Origin: a virus
Virus record (IMG/VR): IMGVR_UViG_3300032093_001041
Span: 1 to 20,462 of that record
Length of the DNA: 20,462 bases
Reading direction: 5' to 3' (one strand)
The notes below the pieces were generated by a model that made no database searches, was not told the origin of the DNA, and was given only the letters and a program-made list of their open reading frames with translations. Shown here piece by piece: positions 6,063 through 20,462 of this stretch; position 1 is the first letter of the stretch; each line of letters starts with the position of its first letter. Made by a program: the position numbers and the translations under genes.

Positions 6063-6068
6063 GAAATG
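5994..6068 (+). repeat. 75-bp imperfect direct repeat, copy 1 (gene tail plus next start codon)
   Basis: It runs from AACGCCA at the 3' end of the 69-aa gene through its stop to the ATG of the next gene. It aligns without gaps to 7285-7359, at roughly three quarters identity by eye. The longest shared block is ATATATACTAACA, followed by TAC, ACACAGAAGA, GTAA and AAATG. Confidence 0.8.
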
Positions 6069-6651: not shown

Positions 6652-7353
6652 ATGCATTTTAACGGACCCCTTTTTCTACATCCACCTAAAACTGGCGGAT
6701 CGTCTATTTTTAATGCGCTGGTACTAAGTAAAATCATTACATTAAAAGATTTAAAACTTGAAGATCTTTTATTAGATATTACAAAATTACATCAAACATT
6801 TGAATCTCATAATCTTCCGATGGATACTGAGTGTGCGGTAAGTGTGAGATGTCCGTACACACGATATGTGTCACTGTTTTATCAATTTTGTTCTGCCCAA
6901 GAAAATAAAAGTCCTGAAGCATTTACAATTCCACAATTTAAAAAATTCATGTTAAACATTCAACTTCGACCAACATGGATAACCTCTCCATGCACAAATT
7001 GGATTGATGGCATCACTGGGGGACTTCACATAATTAAATTTGAAAATTTAGTCGAAGACGTTAAAGCAGTTTACAGAGTTGACTTGAAAAGTTTTTCTAG
7101 AATAGATAGAACTGGTCTAGGTACTAGATACACATCTGTAGTATCAGAACAAGAGACAATTAAGTCAGTTTTGAAATACTACGATGACACAATAATAAAT
7201 TTTGTAAACGAGATTGCAGGTGAAGATTTTAATTGCTTTGGATATACCAAATTCAAAGATTATCAAGAAATGGTTAATTTTAGCAACGCCACTATTCCTA
7301 GCGGGAATGATCAGCTAGAAATATATACTAACACTACAACACAGAAGAGGTAA
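6652..7353 (+). CDS. Sulfotransferase-family protein, 233 aa
   Basis: The N-terminus FLHPPKTGGSSI (8-19) is the PAPS 5'-phosphosulfate loop, and VRCPYTRYVSLFYQF (65-79) is the 3'-phosphate motif of Golgi-type/bacterial carbohydrate sulfotransferases. The YYDD...NFVNEIAGEDF...FGY segment (176-198) matches the usual C-terminal end of the domain. It should move sulfate from PAPS to a hydroxyl, probably on a glycan; the target is unknown. The last ~24 residues (NATIPSGNDQLEIYTNTTTQ plus KR) are outside the normal fold and are shared with the 69-aa protein upstream. Leucine codons lean toward TTA more than in the replication genes, consistent with an acquired gene. Confidence 0.75.
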   Translation: MHFNGPLFLHPPKTGGSSIFNALVLSKIITLKDLKLEDLLLDITKLHQTFESHNLPMDTECAVSVRCPYTRYVSLFYQFCSAQENKSPEAFTIPQFKKFMLNIQLRPTWITSPCTNWIDGITGGLHIIKFENLVEDVKAVYRVDLKSFSRIDRTGLGTRYTSVVSEQETIKSVLKYYDDTIINFVNEIAGEDFNCFGYTKFKDYQEMVNFSNATIPSGNDQLEIYTNTTTQKR

Positions 7354-7628: not shown

Positions 7629-8183
7629 ATGTCCCTGGTAGCGAAATTTGATTCGGTATTTTCAGCTGATGAGATACTGCTAGTTAAAAAGAGTGTTGGT
7701 TCTGCTGTTGATCAGCATGACGATACTTTTGTTCGTAAACATGCTAATGTTAGCACTATACCAGGGTTCATTATTAAAAAATTATCTAAAATTATAAAAG
7801 AATCAAAAAATCATTTTAATTTAGAAATCTTTGACCCGATAGTGTTTGAGTCGTTTACCTATGGGATTTATCATAGCGGCCATGGTGCAGTTTTACATAA
7901 CGACGTTTGCACAACTAATTTGTTTAAAAGTCCTGCTAGAAAATTAACAGTTGTGGTAGGCCTTAATGACTCAAACTCTTATCAGGGTGGAGATATTGTT
8001 TTTCATTATACCAATGATGTTAACCAGTTGAACTTAGATTCAATAACACCAAGAGAAGCATTTAAATTAAATTTAGGTGACGTTATAATTTTTCCAAGTA
8101 TTGTACACCACGAAGTAACAAACATCACAGCTGGTCAGCGCGAAAGTTTAGTTACTCTGATTCTTGGTCCGGCATACCAATGA
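7629..8183 (+). CDS. 2OG-Fe(II) oxygenase, 184 aa (paralogue of the one at 6066)
   Basis: Catalytic residues are visible: His90 and Asp92 in VLHNDV, distal His161 in FPSIVHHEV, and Arg171 ten residues later. The core strand LTVVVGLNDSNSYQGGDIVF (106-125) is the family's GG-containing beta strand. It shares the IIFPS block and overall plan with the oxygenase at 6066, but the rest has diverged well. It starts 8 bp after the dsbA-like gene and its stop overlaps the next ATG (ATGA), so it is co-translated with the SGNH-like protein. The substrate is unknown; the adjoining sulfotransferase and SGNH genes make a glycan or glycopeptide plausible. Confidence 0.8.
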   Translation: MSLVAKFDSVFSADEILLVKKSVGSAVDQHDDTFVRKHANVSTIPGFIIKKLSKIIKESKNHFNLEIFDPIVFESFTYGIYHSGHGAVLHNDVCTTNLFKSPARKLTVVVGLNDSNSYQGGDIVFHYTNDVNQLNLDSITPREAFKLNLGDVIIFPSIVHHEVTNITAGQRESLVTLILGPAYQ

Positions 8184-8857
8184 TTGTTTTTTGTGGAGAT
8201 AGTTTCTGCCAACCTGACGATTATCCTTGGAACTGGATGCATCAAGTTTCAAAAAAATACAAGGATTCTTATGTTAGTTTAGGCAAAGACGCAGTAAGTA
8301 ATTTTGATATTATGTGTCAAGTTGAACATGCTGTTAGTCAGTTGGATTACAAATTACTAGTTGTATGTTTAACTACTATAGACCGCTTAGAAATAGATCA
8401 TAGAGATAATAGTGAGTTAGTGCCTGCTACATATAATCTAATGCGTGAAAGCATAGAAAGTAATACTCTTACAGCGTTATATAGAAAAAAGTACATCACC
8501 AATGATATGTTACCTTTTTTAAGTAGCATACCTATTAATTTAAAAAAGAATGAAGTATATATAGAACACATTATTAATCTATGCAAGTCAGTAAACAAGC
8601 CTTTTATTATATTCAATAATATATTTCCAATTTGGCGTAATACCAATTATGTTCATAGGTTAAAGTATATTGTTGATGGGCCAGCATCAGCAATGGAGGA
8701 AAAAGATTTCCTTCCTAAATCAAAATTTGATGCGCTCCACGATGGTATAATAGAACGACAGATTCCTGTTGCAGATAGAAGTTGTCATCTAACTATTAGT
8801 CAAAGCGTTAGTTGGGCCGAGCGGGCCATCAGCTACATAGATAAAGAAATAACATAA
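8180..8857 (+). CDS. SGNH/GDSL-hydrolase-like protein, 225 aa
   Basis: The N-terminus MIVFCGDSFC has the GDS nucleophile block (Ser8) on the first strand. The C-terminal ADRSCHLT (Asp199, His203) fits the catalytic Asp/His pair of SGNH hydrolases. Between them are alternating hydrophobic strands (LLVVCLTT, PFIIFNNIF) typical of a flavodoxin-like sandwich. The usual Gly and Asn blocks are weak, so it is a divergent member and could be an esterase, a deacetylase or a non-catalytic relative. It overlaps the oxygenase stop by 4 bp. Leucine codons are mostly TTA, unlike the polymerase and clamp genes, consistent with an acquired accessory gene. Confidence 0.6.
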   Translation: MIVFCGDSFCQPDDYPWNWMHQVSKKYKDSYVSLGKDAVSNFDIMCQVEHAVSQLDYKLLVVCLTTIDRLEIDHRDNSELVPATYNLMRESIESNTLTALYRKKYITNDMLPFLSSIPINLKKNEVYIEHIINLCKSVNKPFIIFNNIFPIWRNTNYVHRLKYIVDGPASAMEEKDFLPKSKFDALHDGIIERQIPVADRSCHLTISQSVSWAERAISYIDKEIT

Positions 8858-8920: not shown

Positions 8921-11608
8921 ATGAGTTACGTAGACGCCTTCTACGATAAGAATAAAGATTCAGTGCATGTTGCAGAACGTGTTAACGGTAAACGAATTCT
9001 AGTAGAACACCGTCCCGAATATAATTTTTATGTTGCAGATCCAAAAGGCAGTCGCCGTAGTATTTACGGCGAGCCCGTTACCGAACTAAGGTGCAAGTCA
9101 TTTAAGGACTTTCGTAAGAATGTTGCAATCAATAGTTCAAACAGAACATTTGAAAGCGACATCAAACCTCTTAATAAGACAATCGCAAAACACTACAATG
9201 GTGTTGAACCGCCTAAACTTCAAACAGCATTTTTCGACATTGAGGTAGACTTTGATCCTCTGAGGGGTTATGCAAGCCCTGATGACGCATTCATGCCAAT
9301 TACTGCTATTGGTGTGTACCTACAATGGCTCAACGCAATGATCTGTTTAGCAGTTCCTCCTAAAACACTTAGTTGGGATCAGGCACAGAATATTGCTAAA
9401 GATATACCTGAGGTAATGCTTTTTCAAACAGAAAAAGAAATGCTCGAAGTATTTTTATCGTTGATTGAAGATGCAGACATCCTAAGCGGTTGGAACAGTG
9501 AAGGCTACGATATTCCTTACACAACTAATAGAATTGTTAAGGTATTGAGTCGAAACGATACAAGGCGCTTATGTCTTTGGGACCAATTGCCAAAAGAAAG
9601 AATGTATGAAGCGTTTGGTAGTGAACGCCAAACCTATGATCTAATTGGTCGTGTGCATTTAGACTATATGCAACTATATCGCAAATACAATTACGAAGAG
9701 CGGCACAGTTATCGACTAGACTACATCGGTGAGATGGAGATTGGTGAACGCAAGGTTGCATATGAAGGCAGCTTAGATCGCTTATATAATCACGACTTTA
9801 AAAAGTTTTTAGATTATAACATTCAAGATACTATGCTACTTAATAAGTTAGATAAGAAGCTACAGTTCATTGACTTAGCAAACACAATTGCACACGATAA
9901 TACTGTGTTGCTGCCCACAACAATGGGTGCCGTAGCAACCACAGAACAAGCCATCATTAACGAAGCACATCGACGAGGCTTCGTCGTACCTGATAGAATT
10001 CGTAGCAGTGATAATGCTGACACACAAGCAGCAGGTGCATATGTAGCCTTTCCAAAGAAAGGATATCACGAGTGGGTAGGCAGTATGGATATCAATTCAC
10101 TGTATCCATCAGTATTCCGTGCGCTGAACATGGCGCCTGAAACTATTGTAGGACAAATTAAACCCGTATACACTGATGAAGAAATCCAAAGTAAAATGCG
10201 TTTGCAAAAGATGAGTTTTGCTGATGCATGGTCAGGTAAATTTGGTACAAATGAATTTGAATATGTAATTGACAAAGACATCAATCATCCGCTAGTACTA
10301 GAACTTGAGGGTGGTGAGCGACTGGAATGTACCGGTGCAGATATCTACAATCTAGTATTTAAAAGTGGCCAGCCATGGAACATCAGTGCCAACGGCACTA
10401 TCTTTAAAACAGATGTACAGGGTATTGTTCCCGGATTACTAGAGCGTTGGTACAGTGAGCGTAAAGATCTACAAAAGAAAAAGAAAGAAGCAACTACATC
10501 AGAGGAAAAGGCTTACTGGGATAAGCGTCAGCTAGTTAAAAAGATTAACTTGAACAGCTTGTATGGCGCTATTTTGAATCCAGGATGCCGCTTCTTTGAC
10601 AAGCGTATTGGTCAAAGTACGACACTAACTGGTCGACGTATTACGCGACACATGGCTGCTAAAACCAACGAGCTGCTCACAGGCGAGTACGATCACTTAG
10701 GGCCATGCATTATTTATGGTGACACTGACTCGGTATACTTTACCGCTACTCCTGCACTACCAAAAGATACAGAATTAGATCTAGAAAGTGCAGTAAAACT
10801 ATATGACCATGTTAGCGACACAGTAAGCGACACATTTCCAGAATTTCTAAAACAAGATTTTAATGTTCCGTTGATAGCCGGCGAAGTATTAAAAGCTGGC
10901 CGAGAAGTAGTTGGGCGAGCCGGATTGTTCATTACTAAAAAGCGTTATGCAATCAACTGTTGGGACATCGAAGGTTATCAACCTGATGGTGGCAAGCTCA
11001 AGGTTATGGGCATGGAAATCAAGCGCAGTGATACACCTGAATTTGTACAGGACTTTCTAGAAAAGATATTGTTTGATGCCCTTAGTGGCAAGGGCGAAAA
11101 AGAAGTTATTGAATATATCAAACAGTTCAAAAAGGATTTCCAAAGTATTGAGCCTTGGAAGAAGGGTATGCCCAAGCGTGTGAATAACCTCACGCAGTAT
11201 ACTAAGAAGATTGAAAAGAAACAAGCAAACGAAAAGAACATTCGTCTACAGCGGCTAAGAGAAATTGCAGAAGAAATTGAAGATGGTACTATACCAGGTC
11301 ATGTTAGAGCAAGTATCAATTGGAATCAGCTAAAACAAGCACACAGTGACGCATACAGTACAACTATTATGGATGGTGCTAAAGTAATTGTTTGCAGACT
11401 AAAAAGCAATCCAATGGGATATAAGAGTATTGCATATCCCACTGATGAGACCAATCTTCCTCAATGGTTTAAAGAACTACCGTTTGATGAAGTAGAAATG
11501 GAGACCGCTGTACTAGACAAAAAGATACAAAATGTGCTAGGACAAATGGGATGGGATTTGGATAGAACCAAAGAGAGTGAGGCATTTGGTGAATTTTTTG
11601 AATTTTAG
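8921..11608 (+). CDS. 43: DNA polymerase, family B (T4 gp43-like), 895 aa
   Basis: Replicative polymerase with 3'-5' proofreading. Exonuclease motifs: FFDIEVDF (Asp106, Glu108), ILSGWNSEGYDIPY (187-200) and YNIQDTML (Asp303). Polymerase motifs: SMDINSLYPSV (388-398, Asp390), KKINLNSLYGAI (540-551) and IYGDTDSVY (598-606, Asp601 and Asp603). The ITKKRYAI segment follows. Length equals that of T4 gp43 (898 aa) and all catalytic residues are intact, with no intein or split. It has its own consensus promoter; a 66-aa gene and the sliding clamp gene follow, giving a compact replication module. Confidence 0.97.
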   Translation: MSYVDAFYDKNKDSVHVAERVNGKRILVEHRPEYNFYVADPKGSRRSIYGEPVTELRCKSFKDFRKNVAINSSNRTFESDIKPLNKTIAKHYNGVEPPKLQTAFFDIEVDFDPLRGYASPDDAFMPITAIGVYLQWLNAMICLAVPPKTLSWDQAQNIAKDIPEVMLFQTEKEMLEVFLSLIEDADILSGWNSEGYDIPYTTNRIVKVLSRNDTRRLCLWDQLPKERMYEAFGSERQTYDLIGRVHLDYMQLYRKYNYEERHSYRLDYIGEMEIGERKVAYEGSLDRLYNHDFKKFLDYNIQDTMLLNKLDKKLQFIDLANTIAHDNTVLLPTTMGAVATTEQAIINEAHRRGFVVPDRIRSSDNADTQAAGAYVAFPKKGYHEWVGSMDINSLYPSVFRALNMAPETIVGQIKPVYTDEEIQSKMRLQKMSFADAWSGKFGTNEFEYVIDKDINHPLVLELEGGERLECTGADIYNLVFKSGQPWNISANGTIFKTDVQGIVPGLLERWYSERKDLQKKKKEATTSEEKAYWDKRQLVKKINLNSLYGAILNPGCRFFDKRIGQSTTLTGRRITRHMAAKTNELLTGEYDHLGPCIIYGDTDSVYFTATPALPKDTELDLESAVKLYDHVSDTVSDTFPEFLKQDFNVPLIAGEVLKAGREVVGRAGLFITKKRYAINCWDIEGYQPDGGKLKVMGMEIKRSDTPEFVQDFLEKILFDALSGKGEKEVIEYIKQFKKDFQSIEPWKKGMPKRVNNLTQYTKKIEKKQANEKNIRLQRLREIAEEIEDGTIPGHVRASINWNQLKQAHSDAYSTTIMDGAKVIVCRLKSNPMGYKSIAYPTDETNLPQWFKELPFDEVEMETAVLDKKIQNVLGQMGWDLDRTKESEAFGEFFEF

Positions 11609-11886: not shown

Positions 11887-12645
11887 ATGGCTAAGAATAA
11901 TTATATTAAAGACACCCTTAAGGATGTGCTAAAGCATACCCATAGTTTGGGTATTTTTGAAATGGTAAAAATCTCAGGTACAATGGAAGAAACGTCTGTT
12001 GAAACTGTTGACGGAGATAAGACTGTTATCTTTAAGGGTAAGACTGTAAACCCTGTACCAGACTTTGTTGACGCTACTATCGGCCTAAGCCGTATGGGCG
12101 TGTTGCAGGGCTACTTGCAATATCCTGGGTTTGACGATGAAGGTGCAACTGTTCAGGTAACAACGCAGAATCGTAACGGTGAAGATGTTCCAGTTGAAGT
12201 TGAGTTTGTTGCTGCTGACGGCACTGACGCACACTATCGCTTTATGCTCGCTGATGTTGTTAATCAGCAGTTAAAGGAAATCAAGTTTAAGGGTGCAGAG
12301 TTTGATGTTAACATCATTCCAACAGCAAAGAACCTAAAGGATCTCGGTTACTTCAACAGCGTACTTGGTGCATATGAGGCTAACTTTGCTCCAAAGACCA
12401 AGGATGGCAAACTGTACTTTCACATTGGTGATGGTGTAAGTGACCGTACAAAGATTCTTATTGCAGAGGGTGTTGATGGCGATATCACACACGAGTTTCG
12501 CTGGCCTTTAGACATCGTGCTAAAGATCCTGCGCCTGGGTGATAGTGCAAACATCGTACTAAGCATCAACAACAAGGGTTTGCTACAGATTAAGGTATTG
12601 AGCGGACTAGGCGAGTATACATACCTACTACCAGCAAAGGGTTAA
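11887..12645 (+). CDS. 45: Sliding clamp (T4 gp45-like), 252 aa
   Basis: The C-terminal pattern, a strand-rich stretch ending DIVLKILRLGDSANIVLSIN and then GLLQIKVLSGLGEYTYLLPA, is characteristic of phage processivity clamps. Length (252 aa; T4 gp45 is 228) and position right after the polymerase gene agree. The trimeric ring tethers the polymerase to DNA and, in T4-like phages, also activates late promoters such as those seen here at 4209 and 20132. The ribosome binding site is weak and lies within the end of the 66-aa gene, suggesting coupled translation. No clamp-loader genes (44/62) are in the window. Confidence 0.8.
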   Translation: MAKNNYIKDTLKDVLKHTHSLGIFEMVKISGTMEETSVETVDGDKTVIFKGKTVNPVPDFVDATIGLSRMGVLQGYLQYPGFDDEGATVQVTTQNRNGEDVPVEVEFVAADGTDAHYRFMLADVVNQQLKEIKFKGAEFDVNIIPTAKNLKDLGYFNSVLGAYEANFAPKTKDGKLYFHIGDGVSDRTKILIAEGVDGDITHEFRWPLDIVLKILRLGDSANIVLSINNKGLLQIKVLSGLGEYTYLLPAKG

Positions 12646-12646
12646 T

Positions 12647-14203
12647 ATGAAAGATTTAGGTAAGCGTCAGAGTGATTATGCGGTATATTTGCCTGCTATC
12701 AGCAGTTTCTATACCAAGCAACTACAAAAGACACTAGCTAATCCTAGTGACTGGCGTACACCAGCTGGGTTTGAATTAGGTAATGCAGGACTTGATTTCC
12801 TTAAAAAGGATCAGTCCTATTACCATTATCCATACGGACTATACTCGGCAGGTCACGCACACTTAGATCCTGCTCGCAGCGATACCGAAGAGCCAATGGT
12901 TCAATTGCGCGATCGAAATGTAACAACTATCTTAGGCGACTCCGGTGGATTTCAGGTTGCTAGTGGTGTGCTAAAACTTGATTGGTCTAACGCTAAAGAT
13001 CCTAATGATCCAAGTCGCTTAGAACTTTGCGAAAAGATTCTACGCTGGCTTGAACACACAGCAGACTGGGCAATGACATTGGATATTCCAGGCTTTGCTG
13101 CCGTTCCACCATACAATAAGAAAACCGGTCTTACAAAGATTCAAGATACCATTGATATTAGTATGTTGAATTTAGATTATTTTGTACGCAATCGTGTACC
13201 AGGAAAAACTAAGTTTCTTAATGTTCTTTCAGGTACCGATCAAAAAAGTGCAGATGATTGGTATGAAAGTGTAAAACATTTTAGTGATCCAAAGTTTGTT
13301 GCTGCCAATTATGGTGATGCTGATCGCACACTAGAAGGCTATGCTTTCGCAGGTATTAACATGCGTAATATGCCCATTGCCCTTAAGCGTATTCTTAAGT
13401 TACGAGAAGATGGTCTCTTAGAAGGTAAGGGTTGGATTCACTTCCTTGGTACAGGTAAATTGAATTGGGCTTGCTACCTTACCAGCATTCAGCGTATGCT
13501 TCGTAAGCATGATAGTCCTAATATTACAATTAGTTTTGACGCAGCTAGTCCGTTTGTGAATACTGCATACGGTCAGTGCTACAGCTACAACTACTTCTCG
13601 CCCAAGCGTTTTGGTTACTTTATGAACCGAGCATTTGATAATCAGAAGCTCAAGGGCAGTACATTGCCTATGCCGTTCAATGGTCCAATTATGGAACGCC
13701 TTGTTGCAGGTGATATCTGCTGCATGGAAGAGGGTGATTTAGATCGTAACGATAAAGCAAAAACTAAAGAAAGCACAAGCTGGGATACACAGAGCTACCT
13801 TTACTATATGGCGCATAGCGTGTACAATCATATCACTGCGGTTCAGGAAGCTAATCGTTTAGCTGATATGGAAAAGTATCGCGCTAATGTACATTACAGT
13901 GATTGGATCAATGACAAGACCAATAAAGGAACAAACGAGTTTAGCCCATATATTCCATATAGTGTGGTATACTTTGATAGTTTCGTACAAGAAGTATTAG
14001 ATCCAGCATGTCCTAATCCATACGAACTTATTGACAAGTACAGCAAGTTCCTAGAAGAAATTAGCTTTGGTAGCTATGCTACTGAAACACATCTCGATAC
14101 AAGTTTCTTTGAAGAAGCGTCAACCGCAGTACACGACGAGACTGTTAGCAGAGAAGAAGAAATGCTTGATCCTGCAATGATGGGAGGCTTTGGTGAAGAA
14201 TAG
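12647..14203 (+). CDS. dpdA: DpdA/tRNA-guanine-transglycosylase-like DNA base-exchange enzyme, 518 aa
   Basis: The TGT signature LGDSGGFQVASG (97-107) carries the active-site Asp98. A second Asp follows in MTLDIPG (Asp146). HFLGTGKLNW (265-274) matches the 'LGIG' substrate loop, and SFDAASPF (297-304) fits the strand bearing the nucleophilic Asp (Asp298). In phages this superfamily includes DpdA, which swaps guanine in DNA for a 7-deazaguanine. A QueD-like gene and folE in the same window support DNA modification rather than tRNA work. I see no TGT-type CxCxxC zinc motif after the nucleophile, and the protein is much longer than bacterial TGT (about 375 aa). The Arg/Asp/Glu-rich C-terminal ~150 residues are unexplained. 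It starts 1 bp after the clamp stop. Confidence 0.75.
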   Translation: MKDLGKRQSDYAVYLPAISSFYTKQLQKTLANPSDWRTPAGFELGNAGLDFLKKDQSYYHYPYGLYSAGHAHLDPARSDTEEPMVQLRDRNVTTILGDSGGFQVASGVLKLDWSNAKDPNDPSRLELCEKILRWLEHTADWAMTLDIPGFAAVPPYNKKTGLTKIQDTIDISMLNLDYFVRNRVPGKTKFLNVLSGTDQKSADDWYESVKHFSDPKFVAANYGDADRTLEGYAFAGINMRNMPIALKRILKLREDGLLEGKGWIHFLGTGKLNWACYLTSIQRMLRKHDSPNITISFDAASPFVNTAYGQCYSYNYFSPKRFGYFMNRAFDNQKLKGSTLPMPFNGPIMERLVAGDICCMEEGDLDRNDKAKTKESTSWDTQSYLYYMAHSVYNHITAVQEANRLADMEKYRANVHYSDWINDKTNKGTNEFSPYIPYSVVYFDSFVQEVLDPACPNPYELIDKYSKFLEEISFGSYATETHLDTSFFEEASTAVHDETVSREEEMLDPAMMGGFGEE

Positions 14204-14708
14204 AGACGGTCATGACGATAGCACAAAGTTCTTTATTGGAACTGAAGTAGAGCATACACCTGCATATGGACAGAGAACTCTGTTTGTTGTAGGACTACAG
14301 CCCAAGGAAGAAATTTTAGCTCGTGCATTAAACAATAAATGTCCACATATCTATCTAGGTGCTAATCAAAGTTTTGCGCCCAATGAGAAAGAATGGGAGA
14401 ATTGGGATAAGTTAGTTACCGGATTACTAAAAGATGGTATTTGGGTTACATTAGATTTTGACAGCAAATATGCTAATCATCCGTGGTTCCACGATAATGG
14501 TTGGAATGAATATGATAACTTTATCCCCATGATTAGTGTTAAGCTACCCTATATTAGATTATACAATTATAATGCTACAGTTAAGATTGACGACAAAGGA
14601 TTTAAAGAATCTAATCCGGGTGTTTGGTGTCACAGCTTACACAGCCTACAAAACAGAGAACAATTTACGGATTGGTCTAAATACACTAAGGATGAAGTAA
14701 TTACTTGA
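14193..14708 (+). CDS. Unrecognised protein overlapping dpdA, 171 aa (GTG start)
   Basis: The start is set by GGGAGG at 14182-14187, 5 nt before GTG 14193. A TTG at 14190 is in frame but only 2 nt from that sequence. It overlaps the dpdA stop by 11 bp, so the two are probably translated together. Conserved-looking blocks: FIGTEVEHTPAYGQRTLFVV (N-terminus), CPHIYLGANQSF, and GIWVTLDFDSKYANHPWF, then a short CHSLHSL near the end. Alternating strands and helices suggest an alpha/beta fold. There is no CxxxCxxC, so it is not a complete radical-SAM QueE. I do not recognise it; tight coupling to dpdA makes a role in base modification the leading guess. Confidence 0.7.
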   Translation: MKNRDGHDDSTKFFIGTEVEHTPAYGQRTLFVVGLQPKEEILARALNNKCPHIYLGANQSFAPNEKEWENWDKLVTGLLKDGIWVTLDFDSKYANHPWFHDNGWNEYDNFIPMISVKLPYIRLYNYNATVKIDDKGFKESNPGVWCHSLHSLQNREQFTDWSKYTKDEVIT

Positions 14709-14732
14709 CCTTTATCCAAAGTGCAATACTAT
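14705..14732 (+). promoter_or_regulatory. Sigma70-like promoter giving a probable leaderless transcript
   Basis: TTGACC (14705-14710), a 16-nt spacer, TACTAT (14727-14732). The -35 overlaps the stop codon of the upstream gene. Seven bases after the -10 is the A of the ATG at 14740, and no Shine-Dalgarno sequence lies in between. Confidence 0.6.
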
Positions 14733-14739
14733 AAAATAT

Positions 14740-14922
14740 ATGAATATAAAATTAGAATGTGATGATGATGGAGTTATTGTTAGTACAACTATAGAAGTTG
14801 AAAGTCTAGAAACTGAGCAGGATCTGCAAGAAGTATTTCTCAAATTTATCAAATTTGTTAGAAAGTGCGGCGCTAAGTTTCCAGAAGAATTAGAACAGAT
14901 AGAAAAGGAGTATAAGAAATGA
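14740..14922 (+). CDS. Small acidic protein of unknown function, 60 aa
   Basis: Two N-terminal strands (MNIKLECDDD and VIVSTTIEVES) are followed by an amphipathic helix (EQDLQEVFLKFIKFVRKCG) and a short charged tail. It has two cysteines, not arranged as a zinc site. There is no ribosome binding site; the start probably coincides with the transcript's 5' end. The stop overlaps the next ATG (ATGA). Family not recognised. Confidence 0.6.
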   Translation: MNIKLECDDDGVIVSTTIEVESLETEQDLQEVFLKFIKFVRKCGAKFPEELEQIEKEYKK

Positions 14923-15122
14923 TTGAACTTATTATTAATATAATGGTAGGCACAGCCGCATTTATTTTCTTTTCTATTCTAACTTGGTTTATCATTGAAT
15001 CAAACAAATACATTTCTGAACGCAATCGTCTAAGAAAAGAAACAGGCAAATACTACGATTACGAAATCCACGAAGAACTGTTAAGGCGTGCAAGAGAAAA
15101 AGAGACTAAGGACAAAGAATGA
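14919..15122 (+). CDS. Small single-pass membrane protein, 67 aa
   Basis: Residues 2-26 (IELIINIMVGTAAFIFFSIL and TWFII) form one clear transmembrane helix at the N-terminus. The remaining 40 residues are highly charged (ERNRLRKETGK, RRAREKETKDKE) and likely cytoplasmic, with a Tyr-rich KYYDYEIHEEL patch. The layout resembles small phage membrane proteins such as spanin-like or superinfection-exclusion factors, but there is no specific motif. It overlaps both neighbours by ATGA junctions, placing it in one translational unit with the QueD-like gene. Confidence 0.65.
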   Translation: MIELIINIMVGTAAFIFFSILTWFIIESNKYISERNRLRKETGKYYDYEIHEELLRRAREKETKDKE

Positions 15123-15529
15123 AAACTATTTGGGTCACATTTCAAAAAGAAGGCATCCATATGTATCCGGGTGCCGATACTGATCCTAAGTTAGCCACAG
15201 GCGGCTGGGACGATGTAAGTTTTCTAGGTGTGCCGCACAGGCACATTTTCCATTTCAAAGTCTGGATCGAAGTATTTCACGATGATCGAGACATTGAATT
15301 TATTCAGTTCAAGCGTTGGATGGAACGTCAGTACAGTCAGGGTGTACTAGAACTGAATCACAAGAGCTGCGAAATGATCGCAGAAGATTTAGCTAAAACA
15401 ATTAGGGGTAGATTCCCTGATCGTTGGCTAAAAATCAGCGTAGCCGAAGATAATGAAAACGGTTGCGAAATTGACTTTCCAAAGCCATCAGATGATTGGC
15501 AAGTAGACGGTCCAACATATTTTAGATAA
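15119..15529 (+). CDS. QueD/6-pyruvoyl-tetrahydropterin-synthase-like protein, 136 aa
   Basis: Length and motif order fit the T-fold QueD/PTPS family. PHRHIFHFKVWIEVF (39-53) supplies the His-x-His zinc pair (His40, His42) on the first long strand. DRDIEFIQFKRWME (56-69) stands where QueD has 'GmvxDFxxLK'. LNHKSCEMIAEDLAKTI (79-95) matches the 'LN...PTxEnxAxxI' helix, and VAEDNENG (108-115) holds the substrate-binding Glu. The third zinc His expected near the N-terminus could be His14, but this is uncertain. QueD makes 6-carboxytetrahydropterin on the way to preQ0. FolE supplies its substrate and is encoded downstream, and a DpdA-like gene lies upstream. Divergence is considerable, so the call relies partly on context. 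Confidence 0.5.
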   Translation: MKTIWVTFQKEGIHMYPGADTDPKLATGGWDDVSFLGVPHRHIFHFKVWIEVFHDDRDIEFIQFKRWMERQYSQGVLELNHKSCEMIAEDLAKTIRGRFPDRWLKISVAEDNENGCEIDFPKPSDDWQVDGPTYFR

Positions 15530-15541
15530 CAGGAGAAACAT

Positions 15542-15721
15542 ATGACCGAGACACATCTAAAGATTAAGGCAGTATTCGATGAATACCTAAAGGAATCAGA
15601 AGCGTTTGAAGTTAAGGGCGTAAAGGCCGCGGCTGCTCGTGCTCGTAAGGCGCTAGGCGAACTAGGTAAGTTAACTAAGGTTCGTCGTGCTGAGATTCAG
15701 GACAAGAAGAACTCGCTATAA
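15542..15721 (+). CDS. Histone H1-like (Hc1-type) DNA-binding protein, 59 aa
   Basis: A short gene with an excellent ribosome binding site (AGGAGA, 7 nt before ATG 15542), ending TAA 15719-15721, two bases before the next ATG. The protein begins MTETHLKIKAVFDEYLKESE and continues with KGVKAAAARARKALGELGKL, then a basic helix and KKNSL. The KGxKAAxxRARKAL..L.KL pattern is that of bacterial histone H1-like Hc1 domains (chlamydial Hc1 and phage/bacterial relatives). It would bind DNA non-specifically, either on phage DNA or to alter the host nucleoid. Many gene finders with a 60-codon cut-off would miss it. It is cotranscribed with the QueD-like gene 12 bp upstream. Confidence 0.8.
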   Translation: MTETHLKIKAVFDEYLKESEAFEVKGVKAAAARARKALGELGKLTKVRRAEIQDKKNSL

Positions 15722-15723
15722 TC

Positions 15724-16845
15724 ATGTTTGATTTAGATACAACCTCTGCATGGGAAAATAAAACCCTAGATTACAATCTAGAGAAGTATCCATGGAACAA
15801 ATGGGTGCTAGATATCATTAATGAGATCCGCCCAGATGTAAAAAGTTTGGAAACAATTCATGAGGTCGTTGATGTTCCTGAGCTTGTGAAAATACAAGCA
15901 TATGTTCAGGCAGCATTTGGCCGAAAAGAATTCATGCAGAGGTTTGATTCTTTCGCTGAAGAATATGCAAAAAATCTAATCAGTAACAAGAAGTATCTAA
16001 TAAAAAGAAATGCTACACTAAATGTAGTACTTCCTAATCAAGCAAAAAAAGCTAGAAGATTACCCTTTCATCAGGGAATCTTCTATTCAAATGGAAGAGG
16101 CCAGCGGACCATCTGGATGGCTCTCACCAAGTGCGAAGGTACTAACAGTATGTGGATTATGGATACTGATAATAGTCAACGCATTACGAAAACTGTTATA
16201 GCTGAACAATGGCCTCTTTCTAAATTTGAAGAAGAATGCGTAAAATATTCTAAGCCGGTAGAAATAATACCCGGGCAAGCACATCTGTTTCATCAAGAAC
16301 ACATTCATGGCAATGTTAATAATGAAACAGGCTATACGAGAATGAGTATTGACTGGCATATACTAATCGAAGGTGAAGAATATTGGCGAAGACAGCCGGG
16401 CGGTTTCTTTAGACTACCCGGGGATTACGCACAGGATACACCGCTAGATTATACAGGTAAGGTTGTAGTTGCATATACCAGCAACAATACAGAATTTGAT
16501 TCTAACATACCTATGTATATACAGCGAGGTACTATTGATTCGTACTGTGCTAAACACAAAATTAATCACACTGGTGTACAATTTGAAAATGAATTCTTAC
16601 CATGGTTACCCATTTTACAAGATTATATTTTTCAAAAGCCTGACGCTATTGTACTTTTTAGCTTGCATTCCTTACCGGACGATGCTATAATTGCTAATAA
16701 GATACTAAATTTAGCACTACAGAACGAAGTCGAACTGCACTTTGCAAATGAATTTTTATCACTAAAGGATAGAAATGATTTAGAAAAGATTTTAACTTAT
16801 AAGAACTTTGGTGTAAAAAAGAAAGGCCCATTTAGTTGGGAATAG
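15724..16845 (+). CDS. Two-domain protein: oxygenase-like domain fused to a 'sporadic carbohydrate cluster' domain, 373 aa
   Basis: Residues ~40-225 look like a phytanoyl-CoA-dioxygenase-type 2OG-Fe(II) enzyme: PFHQGIFYSNG (His116), a core strand IWMALTKCEGTNSMWIM, then IIPGQAHLFHQEHIHGN (distal His193 or His195) and TRMSIDWHI (Arg206). Residues ~245-350 match, as I recall it, the small LIC12192-type 'sporadic carbohydrate cluster' protein: VVVAYTSNNTE, IPMYIQRGTIDSYCAKHKI, the LFSLHSLPDD block and ELHFANEFLSL. In bacterial polysaccharide clusters these are usually two adjacent genes; here they are one chain. The usual HxD is His-Gln-Gly at 116-118, so metal binding may differ. The neighbouring glycosyltransferase and epimerase support a carbohydrate role. 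Confidence 0.65.
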   Translation: MFDLDTTSAWENKTLDYNLEKYPWNKWVLDIINEIRPDVKSLETIHEVVDVPELVKIQAYVQAAFGRKEFMQRFDSFAEEYAKNLISNKKYLIKRNATLNVVLPNQAKKARRLPFHQGIFYSNGRGQRTIWMALTKCEGTNSMWIMDTDNSQRITKTVIAEQWPLSKFEEECVKYSKPVEIIPGQAHLFHQEHIHGNVNNETGYTRMSIDWHILIEGEEYWRRQPGGFFRLPGDYAQDTPLDYTGKVVVAYTSNNTEFDSNIPMYIQRGTIDSYCAKHKINHTGVQFENEFLPWLPILQDYIFQKPDAIVLFSLHSLPDDAIIANKILNLALQNEVELHFANEFLSLKDRNDLEKILTYKNFGVKKKGPFSWE

Positions 16846-16854
16846 GAGATTAAA

Positions 16855-17529
16855 ATGTTTTATAGAGAATCAGTAAGAGCTGATGCAGTTAAAGTAAACG
16901 CAGCAATGACTCGTGTTTATCAAAATATGTTTCTAGCTGTAGTTAATTCAATGCTAGTAAGCTATTTTGTTGGTAATAGTCCTGAATTACTCAATTTCTT
17001 CTTTACAGGTATTACCAAGTGGATTGTGATCTTTGCGCCGCTGGCCGCAGTATTCTTTATTTCATTTAAGATGCCCACAGCATCGAAACAGACTGCACAA
17101 CTAATGCTGCACGGTTTTGCTGCACTAATGGGTCTGAGCTTTGCTACTATCTTTGCTGTATATACTGCACTAAGTATTGTACAGGCATTTTTAGGAGCAG
17201 CATGTTTGTTCCTAGCAATGACACTATACGGCTATACAACTAAAAAGGATCTAACCAGTGTTGGGTCATTTATGTTTGTAGGTCTAATCGGTATTATTAT
17301 TGCAAGTATTATCAATATCTTTATTGGTAGTACACTGATGCAAATGGTAATCAGTGCTCTTGCTGTAATTATTTTCTTAGGTTTGACAGCCTATGATACA
17401 CAAAAGATCAGAGAAATGATTATGTTTGATAACAGAGGTAATGCAGAAGTTACAGGTGCATTAACTCTTTATCTAGACTTTATTAACCTGTTCTTAAACT
17501 TGCTACAACTTTTTGGTAATAGAAAATAA
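16855..17529 (+). CDS. Bax inhibitor-1 (BI-1/YccA/YbhL) family membrane protein, 224 aa
   Basis: About seven hydrophobic segments (near 24-40, 54-71, 83-105, 106-126, 134-157, 160-178 and a C-terminal 200-221), the number and order of the BI-1 family. The C-terminal signature is present: TAYDTQKIREM (Asp181) and GALTLYLDFINLFLNLLQLF (Asp208), the two conserved acidic positions linked to pH-gated calcium leak in bacterial members. It should sit in the host inner membrane. Bacterial YccA modulates FtsH and YetJ is a calcium channel; a phage copy could influence membrane proteolysis, ion balance or lysis timing. It has a strong AGGAGA ribosome binding site and lies 9 bp after the fusion gene. 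Confidence 0.85.
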   Translation: MFYRESVRADAVKVNAAMTRVYQNMFLAVVNSMLVSYFVGNSPELLNFFFTGITKWIVIFAPLAAVFFISFKMPTASKQTAQLMLHGFAALMGLSFATIFAVYTALSIVQAFLGAACLFLAMTLYGYTTKKDLTSVGSFMFVGLIGIIIASIINIFIGSTLMQMVISALAVIIFLGLTAYDTQKIREMIMFDNRGNAEVTGALTLYLDFINLFLNLLQLFGNRK

Positions 17530-17532
17530 CAC

Positions 17533-18618
17533 ATGACAGTTTATATCGTTGAACTAGAACCGGTAGAGACTAGATATACTAAACAATGGAAGCAGTTCCT
17601 GCCGTCACAGATGCTGATGGCAGGACTTCCTGTTGAAGTAATTGAAGGTCCAAGTGATGCTCCGCAGGATACAACCCCGGGAGCATTTCTAAACTTTAGT
17701 GGTACTAACTATTGGAAAAGCGAACAACTAAAAACTATTTCGCAAATGTTTGCTGCTGGTAAAATCAAAGACGGTGACTATTTCCTTTATACTGATGCAT
17801 GGAACCCAACAATCCTACAACTAAAGTACATGGCAGAATTGCTAGGTATTAAGATTATAATTGGTGGTATGTGGCATGCTGGCAGTTACGACCCTGCAGA
17901 CTTCTTGGGTCGGCTTATAGGCAATGCTCCGTGGGTAAGGCATACTGAAAAGGCGCTTTTTTATGCAATCGATCATAACTACTTTGCCACTGATTTTCAT
18001 ATTGATTTGTTTAGCTTAAACCTACTAGGGATAGATCCAGAAACTGTTCGCCAAAGATATGGTCAAGAGGGTAAGATTGTTCGATGTGGATGGCCCATGG
18101 AATACCTAGAGCATATGATGTATGGTCACAAAAATAAAAGCAAGCGTAATTTGATATTGTTCCCGCATCGCATCGCTCCTGAAAAACAACTAGATATTTT
18201 TAAAGACTTAGCCAAGCATCTACCGCAATACGATTTTGTTGTTTGCCAAGAGCGAAATCTAACCAAGCAAGAATATCATGATCTTTTGGGAGAGGCTAAG
18301 ATGGTATTCAGTGCTAATCTACAAGAAACATTAGGTATCAGTTGGTATGAAGGTGCAGCAGTTGGTGCGATACCACTTGTACCAGATCGTCTTAGCTACA
18401 GTGAAATGGCGCTTGACACATTTAAATATCCCAGTGAATGGACTGAATCATATGCTGCATATGAGGCGAATCGCCAGCAATTGTGTCAGCTGATCGCGCA
18501 ACACATAGATTCTTATGATGCTAGACTGGAACAAATAGAAGCACAAGTAAACATATTACAACAAGATTTCTTCAGCGGCAAGATTTTATACGAAACAATT
18601 AGGAAACACATATCATGA
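17533..18618 (+). CDS. GT-B glycosyltransferase (family 4-like), 361 aa
   Basis: The C-terminal half has the hallmark of GT4-type retaining glycosyltransferases. LILFPHRIAPEKQLDIFKDL (207-226) contains the HRxxPEK phosphate-binding stretch. ETLGISWYE (265-273) is the EX7E motif, followed by GAAVGAIPLVPDRLSY. The N-terminal half is the acceptor-binding Rossmann domain, with DYFLYTDAW and IIIGGMWHAGSY. The acceptor could be phage DNA bases, host surface glycan or a virion protein; nothing in the sequence decides. It is followed with a 4-bp overlap by a GalE-type epimerase that may supply the sugar nucleotide. No signal peptide or membrane segment. Confidence 0.8.
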   Translation: MTVYIVELEPVETRYTKQWKQFLPSQMLMAGLPVEVIEGPSDAPQDTTPGAFLNFSGTNYWKSEQLKTISQMFAAGKIKDGDYFLYTDAWNPTILQLKYMAELLGIKIIIGGMWHAGSYDPADFLGRLIGNAPWVRHTEKALFYAIDHNYFATDFHIDLFSLNLLGIDPETVRQRYGQEGKIVRCGWPMEYLEHMMYGHKNKSKRNLILFPHRIAPEKQLDIFKDLAKHLPQYDFVVCQERNLTKQEYHDLLGEAKMVFSANLQETLGISWYEGAAVGAIPLVPDRLSYSEMALDTFKYPSEWTESYAAYEANRQQLCQLIAQHIDSYDARLEQIEAQVNILQQDFFSGKILYETIRKHIS

Positions 18619-19595
18619 AAAACATTGAACGAGAACCAAAGACAGTATTAGTAACCGGAGGCAGTGGCTTTATCGGTAACCTTACTTGTAGGCTGCTAGT
18701 TCAAGCAGGGCATAATGTTATTAATGTTGATAGAAAGAAATGCGAAATACCCGGGGTACATCAGTATCCATTTGATATTGACAATCATCAACTCAAGGGC
18801 ATTCTACAACTAACTAAACCCGACACTATTATTCATCTTGCTGCAACTCATCAGGTAACTGAAAGTTTTATTGACCCTGCAGGATACTACACTAATAATG
18901 TTGCTAATACTATTAATCTGCTTAATCATGCTGTAGCAGCAGGTGTAAAGAACTTTATCTTCAGCAGTTCAAGCTCAATCTATGGTGGCACTAGCGGCAA
19001 TCCAAATAAAGAAACAGATCCGATGCTGCCTATTAGCCCATATGCTCGCAGTAAGACAATGATTGAAATGATCCTCAAGGACTACGAGCAAGCATACAGT
19101 AATATGAAGTTTGTATCATTGAGATATTTTAATGCAGCAGGTGCAGATCCAGACAGTCAGTGCGGATACACACAGGATCCTCCGGGGCACCTAGTTCCTA
19201 TTGTAGTGCAGCGAGCGTTAGCAGATGAAACTGTGCCTGTATTTGGCACCGACTATCCAACTAAGGATGGTACAGCAGAACGCGATTATACGCATGTTTA
19301 CGATATTGCTAGAGCACATATTAATGCAATGAACTATCTAGATGATGGTAACGAAAGTGCTGCATTTAACTTGGGCGCTGGTAAGCCCTATTCAGTTAAG
19401 GAAGTTATCAACGCAGTAGAAAAAGAAACCGGTAAAACTATTAGCATGTTTTTAGAAAATGCAAGACAGGGTGATCCCGCAAAGACGTGGGCTGACATTT
19501 CAAAAGCCAAGGAAGTGCTTGGTTGGGAACCAGTTTACGGTTTAGAAGATATTGTTGCTCATGCAGTAGCATGGGAAAAGAAACGCAAAAAGTAA
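18615..19595 (+). CDS. galE: UDP-glucose 4-epimerase-like extended SDR enzyme, 326 aa
   Basis: VLVTGGSGFIGN (11-22) is the NAD-binding GGxGxxG. Catalytic residues are Ser118-120 (FSSSSSIYG) and Tyr143-xxx-Lys147 (SPYARSK). The RYFNAAGADPDSQCGY and HLVPIVVQRAL segments, then TKDGTAERDYTHVYDIARAH, are typical of GalE rather than of dehydratases. Length is normal (E. coli GalE 338 aa). It interconverts UDP-glucose and UDP-galactose, or the GlcNAc forms, using bound NAD+. It overlaps the glycosyltransferase stop (ATGA), so the pair is probably made in step. Exact substrate is inferred from resemblance. Confidence 0.85.
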   Translation: MKNIEREPKTVLVTGGSGFIGNLTCRLLVQAGHNVINVDRKKCEIPGVHQYPFDIDNHQLKGILQLTKPDTIIHLAATHQVTESFIDPAGYYTNNVANTINLLNHAVAAGVKNFIFSSSSSIYGGTSGNPNKETDPMLPISPYARSKTMIEMILKDYEQAYSNMKFVSLRYFNAAGADPDSQCGYTQDPPGHLVPIVVQRALADETVPVFGTDYPTKDGTAERDYTHVYDIARAHINAMNYLDDGNESAAFNLGAGKPYSVKEVINAVEKETGKTISMFLENARQGDPAKTWADISKAKEVLGWEPVYGLEDIVAHAVAWEKKRKK

Positions 19596-19624
19596 TTGAC
19601 TTTAGACCAAAGATAAGCTATTAT
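19596..19624 (+). promoter_or_regulatory. Sigma70-like promoter giving a probable leaderless transcript
   Basis: TTGACT (19596-19601) directly follows the epimerase stop codon; a 17-nt spacer leads to TATTAT (19619-19624). The ATG at 19631 begins seven bases after the -10, where transcription should start. No Shine-Dalgarno sequence is present. Confidence 0.65.
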
Positions 19625-19630
19625 TAAATT

Positions 19631-20098
19631 ATGCCCAAATACGAATATATAACACACCAAGAAATGAATGACTACTATAGTGAAGTTATTCGTCAAGTTG
19701 CCAAAGACGGAGTAGTACCCGAAGTAATCATCGCGCCTATGCGAGGAGGTGCTGACTTTGGCATTAAACTAAGTAACTATTTTGATGTTCCGTTTGTGCC
19801 TGTAGTATGGCAAACCAGAGATGGTGAGGACAAGGACATTCAATCTTTAACAGCTATCTTAGACAAATACTGGGGGCATGTTGTGTTCCTAGTTGATGAT
19901 ATTTGCGACTCGGGCAAAACTCTTTCAGAGATGATTGAAGTCATACGAGCACAAGAGTTTGTTGACTTTTATGTTGCTGTGGCGATTGAGAATATTGAAT
20001 CAAAGGTTAAGATAGACTATGCTGGCAGAGAAATATCTAGAAGCATAGAAGACCAATGGTTTGTGTTCCCCTGGGAAGACTGGTGGAAACGAAGATAA
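19631..20098 (+). CDS. Phosphoribosyltransferase (type I PRT), 155 aa
   Basis: VVFLVDDICDSGKTL (84-98) is the PRPP-binding loop of type I phosphoribosyltransferases, with the acidic pair Asp89-Asp90. IIAPMRGGADFGIKL (33-47) is the pyrophosphate-binding loop, and the small Trp-rich tail (FVFPWEDWWKRR) resembles hypoxanthine/xanthine PRTs. It transfers a base to PRPP or the reverse; purine salvage is the default, and the base is not determinable here. It lies next to folE, whose GTP substrate it could help supply. The mRNA is probably leaderless. Confidence 0.8.
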   Translation: MPKYEYITHQEMNDYYSEVIRQVAKDGVVPEVIIAPMRGGADFGIKLSNYFDVPFVPVVWQTRDGEDKDIQSLTAILDKYWGHVVFLVDDICDSGKTLSEMIEVIRAQEFVDFYVAVAIENIESKVKIDYAGREISRSIEDQWFVFPWEDWWKRR

Positions 20099-20131
20099 AA
20101 ACAAGAAATCTAGAGCTTGTAAAAGCAGTTC

Positions 20132-20139
20132 GATAAATA
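20132..20139 (+). promoter_or_regulatory. T4-type late promoter box (GATAAATA) before folE
   Basis: Identical octamer to the box at 4209. It is the only promoter-like element I find in the 99 bp between the phosphoribosyltransferase stop and the folE start; a TTGTAA at 20117 has no good -10 at correct spacing. The predicted transcript start would be about 20145, leaving a ~50-nt leader. Confidence 0.5.
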
Positions 20140-20183
20140 ATTATGCTACACAAAGGTAGCAAACTTAAATTATATCCGTGTAA

Positions 20184-20192
20184 GGAAGGAGA
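20184..20192 (+). promoter_or_regulatory. Strong ribosome binding site for folE
   Basis: AAGGAAGGAG-like purine run ends about 6 nt before ATG 20198. It fixes this ATG as the folE start over the earlier out-of-frame ATG at 20143. Confidence 0.7.
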
Positions 20193-20197
20193 AGTAT

Positions 20198-20462
20198 ATG
20201 TCATTCAATAAAACTAAGTGCGACCCTGATTTAGGCAGTCGCGTTCACGAACACCTAGTACAGATGGGTGTTGAAACCCCTACAGTAGATAACGGTGTTG
20301 ACCGCAAAGATAAGATTGAAATTATCGAGCGTCACTTTACCGAAATTATGAAGACCATGGGTCTCGATCTATCAGACGACAGTCTCATGGACACACCAAA
20401 GCGTGTTGCTAAGATGTATGTCAACGAAATCTTTTGGGGGCTAGACTACGATGCTTTCCCCA
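20198..20462 (+). CDS. folE: GTP cyclohydrolase I, 5' part (runs off the window)
   Basis: The 88 visible codons match the N-terminal portion of E. coli-type Fol[16 protein letters not shown] aligns with its [33 protein letters not shown] then [18 protein letters not shown] aligns with the HMTEIM...[31 protein letters not shown] region. The zinc and catalytic residues are beyond the window edge. FolE converts GTP to dihydroneopterin triphosphate, the entry step to both folate and 7-deazaguanine (preQ0). With a QueD-like protein and a DpdA-like transglycosylase nearby, the second role is favoured. Confidence 0.93.

Follow-up and report, generated by a model that had tools for sequence, protein, structure and literature searches.

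What would a phage do with a 7-deazaguanine pathway in which no QueC is found, and why should a glycosyltransferase gene stay so close to this pathway? The question is raised by a stretch of viral DNA of 20,462 nucleotides (IMG/VR record IMGVR_UViG_3300032093_001041; hereinafter, the window), which carries most of a gene cassette of a large tailed phage. A preliminary description, made from the sequence alone, had recognized here four genes of 7-deazaguanine DNA modification on one strand: a DpdA-like gene beginning at position 12647, an overlapping gene of unassigned function (14193), a queD-like gene (15119) and folE (20198). All four open reading frames (ORFs) indeed lie on the + strand at these positions, and the genes are real, but the list was too short: the conserved cassette also holds genes for a glycosyltransferase, the epimerase GalE and a phosphoribosyltransferase. 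On balance, we consider it probable that this hypermodification cassette exchanges guanine for a 7-deazaguanine that is also glycosylated, a reading that draws on sequence comparison and structural models.

The ORFs of the window cannot be chance because they are conserved in many contigs from other samples. A near-identical contig of 92 kb (L015), with 12 differences across the 17,816 positions that overlap the window, shows what lies beyond the window's end. An in-frame TAA in one relative (G024) is no anomaly, being a normal stop.

The 12647 protein matches no Pfam or PHROG model at E<=1e-3 and no NCBIfam model at E<=0.01. Because a profile of 51 sequences of this family found no PDB chain at E<=10, it is the fold comparison that carries the assignment to the tRNA-guanine transglycosylases (TGTs). 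The AlphaFold2 model, built from 51 aligned sequences of the window and viral contigs, has a pLDDT of 89.5 and a pTM of 0.89, and all 50 matches listed by VIA-align are TGTs (Z 17.8-19.3). Foldseek against the PDB gives a mixed picture, with QTRT2 first (1e-4), then a designed enzyme (1.4e-4) and xylanases (4e-4), and comparison with a library of viral structures returns the Motura TGT (5.7e-12) and a protein of phage nt-1 (3.3e-9). At the level of profiles, the family matches three DpdA2-type proteins (E 1.4e-6, probability 90, 188 columns), the joint profile of which matches the nt-1 DpdA2 at E 1.5e-46; the direct match to nt-1 DpdA2 is weak (E 0.026, probability 1.9, 104 columns), and that to the DpdA of phage 9g (DpdA1), compared as a single sequence, is not significant (E 0.44, probability 0.1). 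Four residues, D98, D146, H265 and D298, are invariant in 174 of 174 rows of the family alignment; these rows include overlapping and near-identical contigs. The presumed catalytic pair, D98 and D298, aligns with the same motifs of the DpdA2-type proteins, and we take these residues to be the counterparts of TGT D102, the aspartate of the DSGGFQ motif, and D280, the later aspartate nucleophile. Given the TGT fold, the match to DpdA2-type proteins and the invariant aspartate pair, the initial identification holds: by model and profile, the 12647 protein is a DpdA-type enzyme, albeit of a divergent branch, which we denote DpdAX for the purpose of this analysis only. Relatives of DpdAX were detected in 13 of 50,697 records of named phages, all annotated as hypothetical; among them are those of Vibrio phage 2.275, of Sinorhizobium phage Phosso and of PA5oct, the last with 50% identity. 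Guanine in the phage DNA is probably exchanged for an altered base, and the combination of DpdAX and FolE supports a phage system of 7-deazaguanine DNA modification.

So which base could this be? FolE was correctly recognized: the fragment at the window's edge reaches 30.4 bits with PF01227 (cut-off 27), and the complete L015 protein of 226 aa passes the equivalog model NF006824 (329.2 bits against a cut-off of 202). QueE, which had been surmised to lie outside the window or to come from the host, is there as well, at least as a queE-like gene that begins about 750 bases past the folE stop in L015, or about 1.2 kb beyond the window's end. The five best models for its product are all QueE (28.6-42.3 bits, with cut-offs of 200 to 300), and a QueE-like match is present in 17 of 21 close-relative records; the search with the ACP17 QueE failed to detect the QueE annotated in PA5oct, and little weight can therefore be put on its negatives. 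The companion suggestion, that QueC is likewise out of view or supplied by the host for preQ0 synthesis, fared worse. In a search of 47 records, many of them fragments and with host genes outside its scope, full-length QueC (PF06508) was found in one, Vibrio phage 2.275, and neither in the near-identical 92-kb contig nor in the 46 other records; a QueC gene just beyond the window is unsupported by these data. Because of this rarity of full-length QueC, the route probably stops at 7-carboxy-7-deazaguanine (CDG).

Several candidates for QueC were considered on the way. Matches in G009 (22.9 bits, just over the cut-off), G017 and X1 appear by eye to be NAD-synthetase-like and were not counted. 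Short PP-loop ORFs that resemble QueC (about 205-270 aa; L224, L225, L226, L227, L064), the majority of which carry a cysteine cluster near the C-terminus, are present in four records of phages that also have a 15119 relative, G026, G027, G029 (two ORFs) and D479; none is full-length, those of G027 (25.5 bits) and D479 (32.8 bits) being over the cut-off but partial, and G027 has an additional weak match (15.9 bits). Vibrio phage 2.275.O (L004) combines an enzyme of the DpdAX branch with QueC and an annotated QueF. It lends itself to comparison on the question of glycosylation: neither a relative of the 15119 protein nor this glycosyltransferase was found anywhere in its record, which is labelled a partial genome.

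The 15119 protein itself belongs to a family to which no function is assigned and has no PF01242 match listed at E<=10. With its predicted structure (pLDDT 90.7), Foldseek gives 15 matches at E<=1e-3, every one of them QueD or PTPS. VIA-align places PTPS (Z 12.0) and QueD (11.0) together with dihydroneopterin aldolase (11.2) and urate oxidase (10.7), and because the scores of the latter two are similar, only the fold superfamily is firm; the kinship with QueD that the model suggests rests on Foldseek and on 22-23% identity. H14, L36, H40 and H42 are conserved in 179 of 179 rows of the family alignment. The CxxxHG[HY] motif of QueD is replaced by LxxxHxH (of the LxxxHRH type), with leucine in every one of these rows, and the family alignment contains no Asp-His pair (FDH motif); ten aligned phage QueD-family proteins retain C28, D71 and H72, and we take the cysteine and the Asp-His pair of QueD to be catalytic. 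In the N-terminal half, which MAFFT left unaligned, the equivalence with QueD rests on motif spacing, and the profile of the family aligns with phage QueD proteins in the C-terminal half only (E 1.2e-4, probability 55.6; E 0.2 with the QueD-like protein of nt-1).

Ten named phages that encode a 15119 relative were examined more closely (PA5oct, Phosso, ACP17, RHph_I1_18, X1, Ahp1, Bakedbeans, D479, BUCT-ZZ01 and phiST). FolE is encoded in all ten, and a separate PF01242 gene exceeds the cut-off in nine, barely so in Ahp1 (24.9 bits against 22.4), D479 being the one that has none; a separate PF01242 QueD is also present in 10 of 16 large records. Hence the characterization of this protein as QueD-like stands as far as the QueD/PTPS fold goes, whereas its role as the QueD of the preQ0 pathway is rejected on account of the lack of a PF01242 match, the absent catalytic residues and the separate QueD-family genes that occur beside its relatives. 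Within the DpdAX phages, the 15119 family accompanies the absence of QueC, a contrast that rests on one phage, Vibrio 2.275. Given this association, the 15119 protein probably acts on the last available intermediate, CDG. A 2023 study by Cui et al. reportedly dealt with DpdA3, DpdA4 and DpdL, the last proposed as a 7-carboxy-7-deazaguanine decarboxylase; the 15119 protein, as a candidate DpdL, fits this role.

What then is the role of the glycosyltransferase? The 17533 protein is GT4-like by its sequence and is proposed to glycosylate 7-deazaguanine. Two relatives, those of X1 (45.5 bits) and BUCT-ZZ01 (26.5), exceed the PF00534 cut-off of 26.4, and those of ACP17 (21.1), PA5oct (19.0) and Phosso (12.8) remain below it. 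R213 and K218 are invariant in 155 of 155 rows; in the EX7E-type acidic pair, the second acid is Glu in 154 rows and Asp in 1, and the first is Glu in 119. This acidic pair together with the Arg/Lys pair is what we take to be the GT4 signature. Against the PDB, the profile matches glycosyltransferases no better than E 0.02-0.4, and an unrelated tail protein is mixed in with these hits.

It is the company of this gene that suggests decoration of the altered base with a sugar. Among the named phages, matches occur in 20 records, and all 16 with at least 80% query coverage also have a 15119 relative; the other four, at 65% coverage, are PhiXhv-12, -15, -16 and Ep032. These counts by record include many near-copies, 11 records forming the PA5oct group and ACP17 being counted twice. 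The pair is found in five lineages, PA5oct, Phosso, ACP17, X1 and BUCT-ZZ01, adjoining in four of them and separated by one gene, that of DpdA2, in X1. The transglycosylase that goes with the pair is of the DpdA2 type in three lineages (ACP17, X1 and BUCT-ZZ01) and DpdAX in two, and since the pair is found with both alike, it is not an accident of the gene order of one genome. An alignment of DpdA2-type proteins found nothing in six records in a search that had no positive control, and, with the same limit, the DpdA2-type search identified no transglycosylase in RHph_I1_18, Ahp1, Bakedbeans, D479 and phiST. A separate arrangement is seen in Xanthomonas phage PhiXhv-12 (L066:5328-13755), the only one of its four such records that was opened, where a GNAT protein, Gat-QueC, a PIG-L deacetylase, a distant relative of the glycosyltransferase without a PF00534 match and a Gfo/Idh oxidoreductase form one run; the glycosyltransferase is next but one to Gat-QueC, FolE and QueD are encoded elsewhere in the record, and DpdA was not recognized in 25 kb, the sole ORF with a motif match being a 90-aa frame. 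This run may represent a different sugar-bearing deazaguanine modification.

The same coupling is seen in environmental sequences, where both families are common: profile scans of IMG/VR yielded at least 592 relatives of DpdAX and at least 597 of the 15119 protein, the best 80 being kept in each case. In the 36 of the 80 DpdAX loci that extend at least 7 kb to both sides (the other 44 were left out), the clamp is present in all 36, 15119 relatives and the glycosyltransferase in 35 each, FolE and the family B polymerase in 32 each, the 14193 protein in 27, QueE in 26, the phosphoribosyltransferase in 24, GalE in 14 and QueD in 1. The 36th locus, L158, at first looked like an exception that had neither member of the pair and was dropped as such when a search of the whole 310-kb record found both side by side, 5 bases apart, elsewhere in the record. 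Conversely, the 29 qualifying loci anchored on the 15119 family include the glycosyltransferase in 29, DpdAX in 28, FolE in 27, the phosphoribosyltransferase in 25, QueE in 24 and QueD in 5. The glycosyltransferase gene is within 2 kb of the 15119 relative in 58 of 64 loci, not all of them on separate contigs. The plasmids searched have no match for either of the two.

Independent support comes from the named phages with DpdA2 and from a bacterial operon. A scan of bacterial genomes with the 15119 profile gave 13 loci, of which five (L248-L252) are contigs of metagenome-assembled genomes (MAGs) with all or part of the phage-type cassette, and one (L253) encodes QueE, QueD and a 15119 relative. 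Four Magnetospirillum loci from three genomes and one Rhodospirillaceae MAG (L254-L258, with L257 cut at the glycosyltransferase) share the order glycosyltransferase, 15119 relative, DpdAX relative, QueD-family gene. In the chromosome of M. aberrantis SpK (L256:6823-10905), an in-frame ATG of the 15119-type gene at 7989 overlaps the glycosyltransferase stop (7990-7992), and the DpdA gene starts at 8324, before the 15119-type gene has ended (stop 8331-8333). Compared with the window, the glycosyltransferase is 45% identical and DpdA 29% over the aligned part; the QueD-family protein passes PF01242 (80.8 bits) and does not reach the QueD equivalog (71.1 against 89.25). Because its neighbourhood includes genes for a phage integrase, for a HEPN protein and for a CoiA-like nuclease, the operon probably sits in an integrated element. 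As far as gene arrangement can tell, this overlapping operon is the strongest sign that the glycosyltransferase, the 15119 protein and DpdA act together. Two further loci, from one genome of Streptomyces sp. NEAU-Y11 (L259:7965-9633 and L260), encode a 15119 relative followed by a QueD-family protein and FolE and then a FAD-linked oxidase; they are possibly a deazapurine natural-product cluster, and this company suggests a small-molecule substrate for the 15119 protein.

Starting from the genes present, their predicted folds, the invariance of the presumed catalytic residues and the conservation and coupling of the genes, we infer a scheme in which the reactions, the base, the sugar with its attachment point and DNA as the target would fit together as follows. 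FolE and QueE, with QueD supplied by the host or by another part of the genome, would make CDG from GTP, and without QueC there would be no onward step to preQ0. The 15119 protein would then act on CDG, in the simplest case decarboxylating it to 7-deazaguanine. Acting beside the polymerase and the clamp, DpdAX would exchange guanines of newly replicated DNA for the altered base, to which the GT4-like enzyme would add a sugar, before or after insertion; GalE (equivalog TIGR01179, 344.9 bits against a cut-off of 262.3) would be the probable supplier of the donor, UDP-galactose or a related compound, and the phosphoribosyltransferase is proposed to recycle the guanine released by the exchange. 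GalE is found in 15 of 15 first-scan loci with 7 kb on both sides, and its phage relatives showed no link to a 7-deazaguanine system. The broadest form of the hypothesis is put forward tentatively, at somewhat less than even chances. In it, a core of glycosyltransferase, QueD-fold protein and DpdA would make a glycosylated 7-deazaguanine DNA base (for example, with the sugar directly on C7); this core would serve two or more DpdA subfamilies, be common among large phages of aquatic environments and have entered bacterial chromosomes in the form of an overlapping operon.

Any such scenario has to face several facts that weigh against it. Chemically, neither CDG nor 7-deazaguanine offers a hydroxyl to which a sugar could be joined by ordinary O-glycosylation; the linkage would therefore need to be a C-glycoside, a carboxylate ester or of an unforeseen type; a C-glycoside at the nucleophilic C7 or the ester are chemical guesses at the attachment. 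The glycosyltransferase of the window stays below the PF00534 cut-off, at 20.4 bits, and the first Glu of its EX7E motif is replaced by Asp in 36 of the 155 rows. Nine of the 25 phage records with a 15119 relative (RHph_I1_18, Ahp1, Bakedbeans, D479 and five Cellulophaga records) have no glycosyltransferase match at E 1e-5. Furthermore, in the two Streptomyces loci, 15119 relatives accompany QueD-family and FolE genes with no DpdA or glycosyltransferase found, so the 15119 protein is not tied to glycosylation, and PhiXhv-12, with its distant glycosyltransferase and Gat-QueC, implies that the glycosyltransferase is not tied to the QueC-less route either. The contrast between phages with and without QueC involves the single Vibrio phage, the short QueC-like ORFs could make preQ0 in their four records, and QueD was not found in any of the 21 close-relative records, nearly all of them fragments. 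Finally, the environmental loci are one broad lineage with much shared descent because the 36 DpdAX proteins, which form 21 clusters at 70% identity, collapse into just 4 at 50% (single linkage).

The strongest rival, which we nevertheless deem unlikely, is a system without glycosylation: DpdA would insert 7-deazaguanine, CDG or preQ0 of the host, the 15119 protein would be DpdL, and the glycosyltransferase and GalE would alter a surface or virion glycan while sharing the operon. Genes of sugar metabolism are, as is generally known, common in phages, GalE is present in just 14 of the 36 loci, and phiST, reportedly among the phages studied for 7-deazaguanines, encodes FolE, QueD, QueE and a 15119 relative but has no match for the glycosyltransferase. 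A bystander, however, should tend to disappear or give way to other genes, and the glycosyltransferase is kept with DpdA and the 15119 protein across two DpdA subfamilies, five lineages of named phages and bacterial chromosomes, with gene ends overlapping in M. aberrantis. The phosphoribosyltransferase brings up another route, in which it would join the deazapurine to phosphoribosyl pyrophosphate and the polymerase would insert a modified dGTP, the DpdA-like protein being otherwise employed. There is a precedent for this in tubercidin biosynthesis, where TubE is a CDG-specific phosphoribosyltransferase and the UbiD-type decarboxylase TubF is proposed to act later (PMC6112128). Although the gene is present in 24 of the 36 loci, it is missing from the other 12 and, by its profile, from the Magnetospirillum loci, whereas DpdA with intact motif residues is kept, and its best matches, all below cut-off (TIGR01203 first, 35.7 bits against 150), are hypoxanthine/guanine phosphoribosyltransferases, all of which makes the nucleotide route quite improbable. 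Least credible is a TGT that modifies phage or host tRNA, to which a sugar would be added as in mannosyl- and galactosyl-queuosine: the fold is common to tRNA TGTs, and animal tRNAs contain glycosylated queuosine (PMC12518689), but the enzyme has profile kinship with the phage DpdA2 type, represented in nt-1, whose DNA contains dPreQ0 (PMC6884629), and its gene directly follows those of the polymerase and clamp, in the order of phage 9g, whose DpdA acts on DNA (PMC6884629).

The genes of the run are listed in Table 1, and some genes in it or near it need separate mention. The overlapping gene at 14193 is present as described and has no family match in Pfam, PHROG or NCBIfam; it has relatives in the PA5oct group as well as in ACP17, there as a neighbour of folE and dpdA2. 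The small ORF at 15542 has no PHROG and gives tblastn matches of 61-100% identity in 27 of 32 first-scan loci. In the same set of 32, the product of 15724-16845, which hits parts of two "sporadic carbohydrate cluster" NCBIfam models (2OG-Fe(II) oxygenase and SpoChoClust_1), both below cut-off, is matched only in L006, L008, L015 and L035 and was not seen in L009 and L033 despite a DpdA that is 97% identical. Inside the cassette, there is also a membrane protein of the Bax1-I family (16855-17529; PF01027, 187.1 bits), which is shared with the closest relatives only. Upstream of the polymerase are genes for two 2OG-Fe(II) oxygenase-like proteins (6066-6626 and 7629-8183; PF13640, 45.1 and 35.8 bits) and for a sulfotransferase-like protein with a score below cut-off (6652-7353).

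Table 1. Genes of the replication and modification run in the window and of its continuation in contig L015.
Feature	Position	Strand	Remarks
Family B DNA polymerase, at the head of the replication/modification run	8921..11608	+	PF00136 123.1 bits, PF03104 65.6 bits
Probable DNA sliding clamp, immediately before dpdA	11887..12645	+	phrog_12062 (function unknown); 31% identity to Phosso protein annotated as sliding clamp beta
DpdA-type guanine transglycosylase, divergent subfamily (DpdAX), predicted	12647..14203	+	518 aa; model, fold, profile, residues
Conserved protein p14193, function unknown	14190/14193..14708	+	TTG/GTG start, 171-172 aa; overlaps previous stop
QueD-fold paralogue without QueD catalytic residues (Lfam)	15119..15529	+	136 aa; phrog_17812 (function unknown)
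Small conserved ORF beside the 15119 gene	15542..15721	+	tblastn matches in relatives
GT4-like glycosyltransferase	17533..18618	+	PF00534 scores, conserved residues
GalE, UDP-glucose 4-epimerase	18615..19595	+	TIGR01179; overlaps glycosyltransferase gene by 4 bases
Phosphoribosyltransferase, nearest to hypoxanthine/guanine phosphoribosyltransferases	19631..20098	+	PF00156 58.3 bits
folE, GTP cyclohydrolase I, cut by window end	20198..20462	+	88 aa; PF01227; complete at L015:17552-18232
queE-like gene outside the window	L015:18986-19909 (~window 21632-22555)		307 aa, radical SAM

If the glycosylation hypothesis is correct, the product would be a guanine counterpart of the glucosylated hydroxymethylcytosine of T4, reached via base exchange rather than via a modified nucleotide, and a sugar on the base would explain why the glycosyltransferase is kept so closely with DpdA. 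To our knowledge, the derivatives known so far carry small groups at C7. 7-Deazaguanine bases shield the DNA of phages against restriction (PMC6884629). The cassette is present in existing isolates, namely the PA5oct group, Phosso, ACP17, X1 and BUCT-ZZ01, and the Magnetospirillum operon provides a compact gene set.

How does this cassette compare with the known systems? The DpdA1 system of phage 9g, with FolE, QueD, QueE, Gat-QueC and DpdA, yields dG+. Like 9g, where polymerase, clamp and DpdA are annotated in the same order, the present phage has a DpdA/TGT-type enzyme and deazaguanine genes beside those for polymerase and clamp; unlike in 9g, no QueC or Gat-QueC was found here, a QueD-fold paralogue and a glycosyltransferase are added, and the two DpdA proteins have no significant profile match. 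The likeness to DpdL comes through Cellulophaga phage phiST, which has a 15119 relative and no QueC match; DpdL is said to have been proposed for QueC-less cases such as this one. With nt-1, the genome DNA of which contains dPreQ0 (PMC6884629), the similarity of the transglycosylase is distant and extends to profile and fold; nt-1 has QueC beside DpdA2, unlike the window, and ACP17, X1 and BUCT-ZZ01 join DpdA2-type enzymes to the same glycosyltransferase and 15119 relatives. A further parallel is PA5oct, which has DpdA, the glycosyltransferase, a 15119 relative, the phosphoribosyltransferase and QueE within 6 kb and, unlike the window, two QueD-family genes and folE 51-54 kb from the DpdA gene. 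Its system of deazaguanine synthesis and incorporation was noted by Iyer et al. 2021, passages of which name no glycosyltransferase as part of it (PMC7824862). The mannosyl- and galactosyl-queuosine transferases of animals likewise attach sugar to a 7-deazaguanine base (PMC12518689), but there the sugar is carried by a hydroxyl of queuosine's cyclopentene ring in tRNA, a ring that no gene seen here would produce. A 2026 review mentions that deazaguanine incorporation is predicted for jumbo phages (PMC13282480), and in those parts of the literature on deazaguanine and on glycosyltransferases or glycosylation in phages that were covered, a glycosylated 7-deazaguanine in DNA was not found, which does not prove its absence from print. 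A phage with DpdA is in itself of a known type; its novelty would lie in the combination of the QueC-less route with the glycosyltransferase core.

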